Of a stretch of 64,000 nt of DNA, positions 33,309-35,844 are shown piece by piece. Position 1 is the stretch's first letter, and every line of letters begins with the position of its first letter. The notes below the pieces were generated by a model. The model was given only the letters and a program-made list of their open reading frames with translations, made no database searches and was not told the DNA's origin. This DNA is from Serratia symbiotica (GTDB lineage: Bacteria; Pseudomonadota; Gammaproteobacteria; Enterobacterales; Enterobacteriaceae). Location: the NCBI GenBank assembly GCA_011754105.1, contig JAAKDF010000005.1:30471-94470 (forward strand), written 5' to 3'. A program made the position numbers and the translations under genes.

Positions 33309-34315
33309 TTGGAAAATAAGAAAAAATTACCGATATTGACGATGAAAGACGTTGATAAAATAACAGGCGTTTTAACAGAAACCATATCGCCAGCGCTAAT
33401 GAATCCGAAAAAAGTATCAACACTGACGCGTCAGAAAGTGGAACAGGTCGTGCTGGCTTTGCGCTATTCCTTTCGTGGCCTGTCACGCACTATAAAAAGC
33501 CAGGAATCCCGCACTATTTTAGTGATCACTTCAGACATCTGCGATCTATTTTTCGCCGAAGTAATCCAGGGAATATAGCACACTGCTACGAAACAGGGCT
33601 ATTTGGTGATGATCGGCGACTGCGCACACCAACTTCAGCAGAAACACACCTTCTTCTACCTCATAATCATCAAACAGATAGGCAGCATGCTGTTACTAGG
33701 CTCCAACCAGACCCTTAACGTTAGCAAGGAAGAGCAGCGCCATATACCATCGATGGTATATAGCCAACGAAGTTTCCCCGTTGTTGGAATTACCAACAGT
33801 ACATATCAATAACCTAACCGCCGCCTTCGAGGCCGTGCATTATTTATACCAGTTAGTACATCGGCAGATCGCTTATATCACTGGGTCGGAACAGATTTTG
33901 CTAAGCTACTATCGGCTACAAAATTACATGCAATCGTTACGTCGCAATGGCATTAGCGTCGAAATCAGCTATATTAACCGAAGTGACTTTACCTACTAAG
34001 CATGCGCTCAGGCGCTGGCGGCGTTTATGGTTCAGCCTAAACCGCTAACGGCGGTCTTCTGCCATAGGCATGTGATGGCGATAGGCGTACTGTCACAAGC
34101 GAAAAAAATGAACTTGCGGTTGCCGCAATATCTATCAATCGTCGGCTTTGACGACATCGAACTGGCATAATATTGCGTTCCGCCGTGAACCACAGTGGCA
34201 CGGCTACGCTACCATATCGGTAGAAATGTTGGAGCAACTATATGGATAAAAAGTATCGAGTGGCTCGCGGCTATTAGATATAAAGCTGATTATCCGTGGC
34301 AGCAACGCTGCCCCT
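33309..34315 (+). pseudogene. cytR: LacI-family regulator CytR, degraded
   Basis: MKDVDKITGVLTETISPALMNPKKVSTLTRQKVEQVVLALRYS; later fragments in other frames; between priA and ftsN as in other enterics. Confidence 0.85.
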
Positions 34316-34389: not shown

Positions 34390-35212
34390 GTGGCACAAAA
34401 AGACTATGTAAGCCGTGGAAACGTGGCAAAAGCTAGGCATAAACCATTTAGCCGTACAAAACGTGGCTCTACCAAGGTCTCCAAAACCTTGCTGGCACTG
34501 TCCGCTGCCCTGCTGGTGATCTTTATTGGTGGCTTCTATTTCATCATGCACAAAAAGCCGAACAGCTTGCCATTGCTGCCAACGCCCAACAACCGTCCAG
34601 GCAATAGCCTGCCACCAAAACCTGAAGAGCGTTGGCGATATATCAAGGAGTTGGAAAACCGCTAGATTGGCGTGAAAACCTCAACCGAACCTACAGCTAG
34701 CGGTGAAGTGAACGCCGAAATTACGCAGACCGCTGAGCAGCAAAAACTGTTAAAACAAATGCAGGCTGATATGCAACAGGGTCCAATACAACTCAATGAG
34801 GTGCCGTACAACACCCATTCACAAGTCACTGCGCGTGGCAATAGCCATCAACAACAGCAGGTCGGATCCAATAAGCAATCTATTTAACAATGGAGCGATC
34901 AGCGCACCGGCTCAGCCTCCGATTGAACCGAAGCTGGCAGTGAAAAGGACATACTTAAGCAGGAAGTTAATACTGAATCTAAACAAAAATGTATGGTGCA
35001 GTGCAGCCCCTTCCGCACTCCCGATCAGGCTGAATCCGTCCGCGCACACTTGGCTTTTGAAGGTATCGAAGGCCACATCACCACCTGTGATGGCTGGAAT
35101 TGTGTCATACTCGGCCCCTACAGCAGCCGCGAAACGGTAGACAAGAATCTCGATCGCCTGCAGGTTATTGGGCCATGTCAAGTTGTATTACCCGCGCCGT
35201 GGGGGGTTGAAA
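34390..35212 (+). pseudogene. ftsN: Cell division protein FtsN split: 91-aa TM+E-domain ORF (34390..34665) and orphan SPOR domain
   Basis: MAQKDYVSRGNVAKA...LLVIFIGGFYFIMHKK...LPPKPEERWRYIKELENR*; SPOR-like [63 protein letters not shown]. Confidence 0.88.
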
Positions 35213-35313
35213 AGCGCCAATTCCCCCCCATTTATTCTCTCAACATTACTCATATTCTCAGCATAAGCAGAGACTATGAGTGCTTTCTTTCTGTATTCAA
35301 CCAGGATATGCTC

Positions 35314-35844
35314 GTGACAACAATAGTAAGCGTTCGTCGCCAAAGCCAGGTAGTAATCGGCGGTGATGGCCAGGCTACCTTGGGTAGTACAGTGATGAAG
35401 GGCAACGTTAAAAAAGTACGTCGCCTGTATAATAACAAAGTGATTGCTGGTTTCGCTGGCGGCACTGCTGACGCTTTCACACTCTTTGAGTTGTTTGAAA
35501 AAAAATTAGAAATGCATCAGGGCCACCTGGTAAAAGCCGCCGTTGAACTGGCGAAAGATTGGCGCACTGATCGCATGTTGCGCAAACTTGAGGCATTGCT
35601 AGCCGTTGCCGATGAACACGCCTCGCTGATTATCACGGGCAACGGTGATGTCATTCAGCCCGAGAACGATTTGATTGCCATCGGCTCCGGTGGCCCATAT
35701 GCCCAAGCTGCGGCGCGAGCGCTGTTAGAAAATACCGAATTGAACGCCCGCGAAATCGTTAGTAAATCTCTCGGTATTGCTGGCGACATCTGTATTTACA
35801 CTAACCATCTCCACACTATTGAAGAATTGCCTTCCAAAGCGTAA
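35314..35844 (+). CDS. hslV: ATP-dependent protease subunit HslV (GTG start)
   Basis: (M)[58 protein letters not shown]. Confidence 0.96.

Follow-up and report, generated by a model that had tools for sequence, protein, structure and literature searches.

A Serratia symbiotica ftsN frame closed directly behind the E-domain as a probable minimal FtsN

In E. coli, the E-domain of FtsN has been mapped to L75–Q93 (PMC7939390, PMC6325244), within which W83, Y85, and L89 are crucial (PMC6325244), and a 2022 review found it puzzling how about 18 residues carry the essential function of the protein (PMC8998562). A gene of the aphid-type symbiont Serratia symbiotica raises the same question in natural form. 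Its ftsN frame closes after 91 codons, directly behind the E-domain and ahead of the SPOR domain. Is this a minimal, working FtsN or a dead gene? Here, we analyzed the locus within a stretch of 64,000 nucleotides, referred to as the window (G000:C5:30471-94470), from a draft genome of 1.535 Mb in 37 contigs.

The ftsN locus and its surroundings

The open reading frame starts with GTG, and the full 91-amino-acid length of its product aligns with FtsN of 110 enterobacterial loci (Table 1). The one hydrophobic membrane segment was read from the sequence and is matched by the alignment. D5 and Y6, the tail residues of the FtsA interaction, are intact and are invariant in a 17-sequence alignment that includes the window. 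The three crucial E-domain residues are also present (W82, Y84, and L88 in window numbering), and Q93 is absent. The TAG sits at the position of Q93, with which the mapped E. coli E-domain ends; thus, the product contains the E-domain minus its final residue. The original prediction of a 91-residue ORF composed of tail, membrane segment, and E-domain, with a stop directly behind the essential part, is therefore borne out, with only that last residue missing.

Table 1 Features of the window at and around ftsN
Feature	Position	Strand	Remarks
cytR pseudogene	33309..34310	+	five stops; ω about 0.97; neutral yardstick
ftsN ORF, truncated	34390..34665	+	cytoplasmic tail, membrane segment, periplasmic stem, E-domain; 91 aa + TAG
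Single membrane-spanning segment, TLLALSAALLVIFIGGFYFI	34486..34545	+	about codons 33–52; read from sequence, aligned with E. coli FtsN
E-domain, LPPKPEERWRYIKELENR	34609..34662	+	codons 74–91 = E. coli L75–R92; E-domain limits from PMC7939390, PMC6325244
Stop TAG	34663..34665	+	replaces CAG (Gln, E. coli Q93); one C to T change
ftsN linker + SPOR remnant, untranslated	34666..35207	+	three indels; ω about 1.3, window branch
SPOR remnant	34990..35184	+	Pfam SPOR, 39 bits; W201C, G206S, S207P, R238C at conserved positions
hslV, intact	35314..35844	+	ω about 0.29

Two features go beyond the original prediction, namely a remainder of the gene that is still readable and three indels within it. The SPOR domain, still recognizable by its Pfam match, is located beyond the TAG and two frameshifts and is not part of the product. 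Codons 1–91 harbor no stop or indel; the next 176 codons harbor one stop and three indels. Compared with all relatives, these indels are +1 at about 34864, −1 at 34945/34946, and +2 within 35170–35174. Later in-frame stops (TAA at 34885 and TGA at 34924) occur only where the sequence is out of frame, from the first indel to the second. Because of these indels and the unconstrained linker and SPOR region (see below), a full-length FtsN cannot be made.

The +2 indel also removed the old ftsN stop, leaving 34927–35844 on the forward strand open from the SPOR remnant into hslV; a 283-amino-acid ORF from ATG 34993 spans both. This frame is probably meaningless, since the GTG of hslV at 35314 is intact, but an automatic annotation pipeline could mistake it for a SPOR-HslV fusion. 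The window retains the gene order cytR-ftsN-hslV-hslU, confirmed by intact hslV, and the flanking priA, hslV, and hslU are all intact. cytR is broken in the related genomes G027 and G028 as well.

Elsewhere in the genome, ftsL, ftsI, ftsW, ftsQ, ftsA, and ftsZ of the dcw cluster lack internal stops, and open frames remain for FtsB, PBP1b (UB2H domain included), MinC, and DedD. The first gene of the cluster, mraZ, contains several stops (L156 17691-18095, G000:C8); the remaining genes are intact. The amidase gene adjoining tsaE is open, and the N-acetylmuramoyl-L-alanine amidase gene adjoining mltA contains an internal TAG (L155, G000:C9:36878-37051). By position, we take the former to be amiB and the latter to be amiC. 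A search of the genome revealed no second ftsN and no SPOR domain of damX or rlpA; the sole other SPOR gene found was dedD. Hits in a promoter and terminator scan were no more frequent than in shuffled sequences.

Relatives and selection on the window branch

The ftsN-hslU region of the window groups with that of G027 (1.9 Mb), beside G026 (3.6 Mb) and G028. The N-terminal part of ftsN is present in all 30 genomes of the genus that were examined, and among the 110 ftsN loci an in-frame SPOR domain is absent only in the window and G027. The G027 gene (L006) has a TAG at codon 186, ahead of SPOR, together with a D5Y change in the FtsA-binding motif. At codon 186, where G027 has this TAG, the window carries a one-base deletion. 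A nonsense change at codon 186 may have been earlier and shared; SPOR would then have been lost before the window acquired its own TAG.

To gauge selection, omega (ω) was estimated for the window branch with a GY94 branch model on a seven-genome tree. The tree was built from a shorter stretch, because a rearrangement in G027 had distorted a tree from a longer one. For ftsN codons 2–91, ω was 2.2 and not different from 1 (2ΔlnL vs ω = 1 of 1.1), and window-branch dN/dS was accordingly dropped as proof of function. On the same branch, codons 92–267 had an ω of 1.3 and the cytR pseudogene one of 0.97; the values for hslV and hslU were 0.29 and 0.16, respectively.

The distribution of changes along the gene was uneven. 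Ten nonsynonymous and two synonymous changes fell in codons 2–72 (10 of 71 codons changed), compared with no nonsynonymous change, one synonymous change, and no indel or stop in codons 73–91. Codons 92–267 accumulated 34 nonsynonymous and 6 synonymous changes plus the stop, and cytR accumulated 58 and 18, respectively, plus five stops. At a neutral rate pooled from cytR and the ftsN tail, 13.5 nonsynonymous changes are expected in codons 2–72 (P = 0.21 for the 10 seen, which is near the pseudogene rate), and 3.8 are expected in the 19 codons from 73 to 91, where none was seen (P = 0.023). The original prediction had named relaxed selection within codons 1–91 as evidence against function. The outcome is mixed: ω of 2.2 and the near-neutral codons 2–72 point to relaxation, but codons 73–91 are unchanged. 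Judged by these substitutions, selection looks relaxed over the cytoplasmic tail, membrane segment, and stem, and the modest numbers for the E-domain are suggestive of constraint.

Short FtsNs in other symbiont genomes

A profile of the FtsN N-terminus was compared with 392 genomes from 154 genera of the family. The profile matched in 302 of these genomes and detected no FtsN N-terminus in the other 90, which indicates that complete loss of FtsN may also be tolerated. Thirty-seven small genomes, including those of the window, G027, and G028, were examined. The frame ends before SPOR in 27 of them and SPOR is kept in 10; all examined genomes of 2.5 Mb or more have long ftsN frames. A full FtsN with SPOR is kept in G108, G083, G057, G094, and G036 (L124, L122, L128, L137, and L150, respectively), which measure 0.6–1.6 Mb. 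Loss of SPOR is thus not inevitable at small genome size.

All 27 truncated FtsNs retain W83, Y85, and L89 (E. coli numbering); the E motif was placed by its W, Y/F, L pattern, and every locus passed. No frame ends before the E motif, and the 91-position segment is free of stops in 25 of the 27 genes, the exceptions being G047 (one stop) and G295 (two). Tail length, counted in residues from the E-motif W through the C-terminus, is 10 in the window. The 27 values are 9, 10 (eight times), 11 (twice), 18, 20 (twice), 23, 26, 27, 30, 32 (twice), 40, 42, 61, 68, 72, 95, and 104, such that 11 truncated FtsNs stop no more than one codon from the end point of the window. The short ftsN is followed in many lineages by hslV at a distance of about 45–600 bases, and no SPOR motif was found between the two genes.

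On an RpoB tree (INDEPENDENCE), the truncated state corresponds to 11 changes by a quick method and with several long branches in the tree; well-supported branches alone force at least 5. Most of these changes should be losses, since a domain once lost should not be regained. When the loci were reduced to clade-level events, 7 of 21 fell within W+9 to W+11 (P about 2e-6 if end points are uniform from W+9 to W+104), and conservative merging left 4 of 14 (P about 7e-4 under the same assumption); these P values are rough guides because merging was done by hand after the data had been seen. Among truncated genes, larger genomes tend to have longer tails (Spearman 0.64, without phylogenetic correction), a pattern that gradual shortening of the frame down to an essential boundary would produce. 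The window departs from this trend in that it is at the boundary already, though early in reduction.

Selection on these other short FtsNs was measured as pairwise maximum-likelihood ω. Three pairs gave ω significantly below 1: G066/G282 (ω 0.16, 2ΔlnL vs ω = 1 of 21.7; E-domain alone 0.006), G285/G351 (ω 0.04, 2ΔlnL 13.4; E-domain 0.10), and G129/G310 (ω 0.15, 2ΔlnL 16.9; E-domain alone 0.02). The pair G144/G247 had low ω, but was saturated. Evidence from G221/G415 was weak (2ΔlnL 5.6), and ω for G415/G295 was not significant.

A probable minimal FtsN and its counterparts

The 91-codon ORF is probably a minimal FtsN that is still made and used, where both expression and activity are what we infer from the following observations. 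The original prediction that the gene is not dead and encodes a minimal, working FtsN finds its main support in comparison, because other short FtsNs are under purifying selection and all 27 truncated symbiont FtsNs keep the E motif, with 11 ending alike. The survival of the short ORF beside hslV in many lineages where no SPOR motif was found downstream supports it further. Within the window strain, the same conclusion is favored because the frame closes directly after an E-domain that holds its three crucial residues and is unchanged despite the changes expected, because the partner genes are open, and because E. coli lives with FtsN 1-119. The reading is weakened by the ω of codons 2–91, which is not distinct from 1 with 10 of 71 codons changed, by the small basis of the E-domain result (19 codons) and the missing Q93, by D5Y in the sister G027, though its stop is much further on, and by the 90 family genomes with no detected FtsN N-terminus.

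A rival explanation is an early-stage decaying pseudogene. In that scenario, ftsN would be wholly relaxed and on its way to being lost, the E-domain would be intact by chance, and division would proceed via DedD and activated FtsQLB/FtsA. Codons 2–91 with ω not below 1, codons 2–72 changed near the pseudogene rate, the dead cytR next door, and the many tiny genomes with no FtsN seen all agree with it. We nevertheless regard it as unlikely: the E-domain took none of its 3.8 expected changes, every stop and indel lies behind codon 91, and truncated FtsNs of other lineages persist under purifying selection.

The other two explanations concern the stop itself, and both appear highly improbable. 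An error of sequencing or assembly might be suspected in a draft of 37 contigs; against it stand four separate lesions with a decay-type substitution pattern, intact priA, hslV, and hslU on both sides, and the SPOR-removing stop at a different codon in G027. Still less credible is a full-length FtsN obtained by readthrough of the stop or by re-initiation at GTG 34672. The SPOR region is recognizable and that GTG lies right after the TAG, but ω of the linker and SPOR region is at or above 1 and conserved SPOR residues are altered. Readthrough would have to cross two further frameshifts before SPOR, so a full-length product by this route is all but ruled out by the indels, and re-initiation would yield a product without the membrane segment.

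If the 91-codon product is indeed a minimal FtsN, host restriction would have come first and made SPOR loss tolerable; a single C to T change (CAG to TAG) would then have ended the frame right after the E-domain, leaving the remainder of the gene to decay. In E. coli, FtsN is recruited by its tail and FtsA at first and by SPOR and denuded glycan later; the E-domain activates septal synthesis, and SPOR holds the synthase on the septal track (PMC9525312, PMC9426451). By analogy with E. coli, D5 and Y6 of the tail would recruit the protein to the Z-ring by binding FtsA, the membrane segment would put the E-domain into the periplasm, and W82, Y84, and L88 would switch on septal wall synthesis via FtsQLB/FtsWI and PBP1b. 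Normally, FtsN is concentrated at the septum because SPOR binds denuded glycan; that binding would be lost here, and the one SPOR protein found intact is DedD. Recruitment would rely on the FtsA route alone, and division in the window strain may be delayed or its cells elongated.

It is plausible, with somewhat less assurance than for the window gene, that genome reduction subjects FtsN to a natural deletion experiment. Stops would accumulate freely in the linker and SPOR, and the frame would shorten stepwise to the boundary after ...YIKEL(E/K)N(R/L), taking several unrelated symbionts to the same FtsN of 85–95 residues. If true, this defines the smallest FtsN compatible with life and renders the SPOR feedback loop dispensable in host-restricted cells. 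Annotators should not label short ftsN ORFs of this type as dead genes.

The idea of a minimal FtsN is already published for other S. symbiotica strains. In SCc and STs, Manzano-Marin and Latorre (2016, PMC5013485) found ftsN shrunk to a very small portion, which they argue is functional, and they noted that most gene diminutions of this kind occur commonly in other small genomes. Gene, species complex, and argument, namely that only the N-terminal essential part remains and probably works, are the same here. The window differs in that its frame ends at codon 91 right after the E-domain through a single nonsense lesion, with the decaying tail still readable. In terms of gene diminution (PMC5013485), the window gene has lost non-essential domains and kept the experimentally essential part; as for constraint on what remains, an E-domain without changes and a near-neutral rest on its own branch stand beside three clearly purifying pairs elsewhere. 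New are the window example, the survey, the recurring end point, and the selection tests; neither a recurrent end point after the E-domain nor selection tests on short FtsNs were found in the literature searched. Ca. Pantoea carbekii is likewise an insect symbiont with a reduced ftsN, but that gene was called degraded and tied to irregular cell shape rather than considered a minimal functional gene (reviewed in PMC5091035).

The closest experimental counterparts come from E. coli. The last 18 residues of the window product correspond to L75–R92 of the E. coli L75–Q93 peptide; the experiments, unlike the window, include Q93. E. coli survives with FtsN 1-119, with filamentation reported (Gerding et al. 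2009, as cited in PMC5013485). As described there, FtsN 1-119 resembles the window product in combining tail, membrane segment, and E-domain without SPOR and supports division; it differs in being a laboratory construct with about 27 more residues. Natural FtsNs that end after the E-domain, repeatedly and under purifying selection, would provide evolutionary support for the conclusion drawn from such E. coli constructs, without overexpression or engineering.
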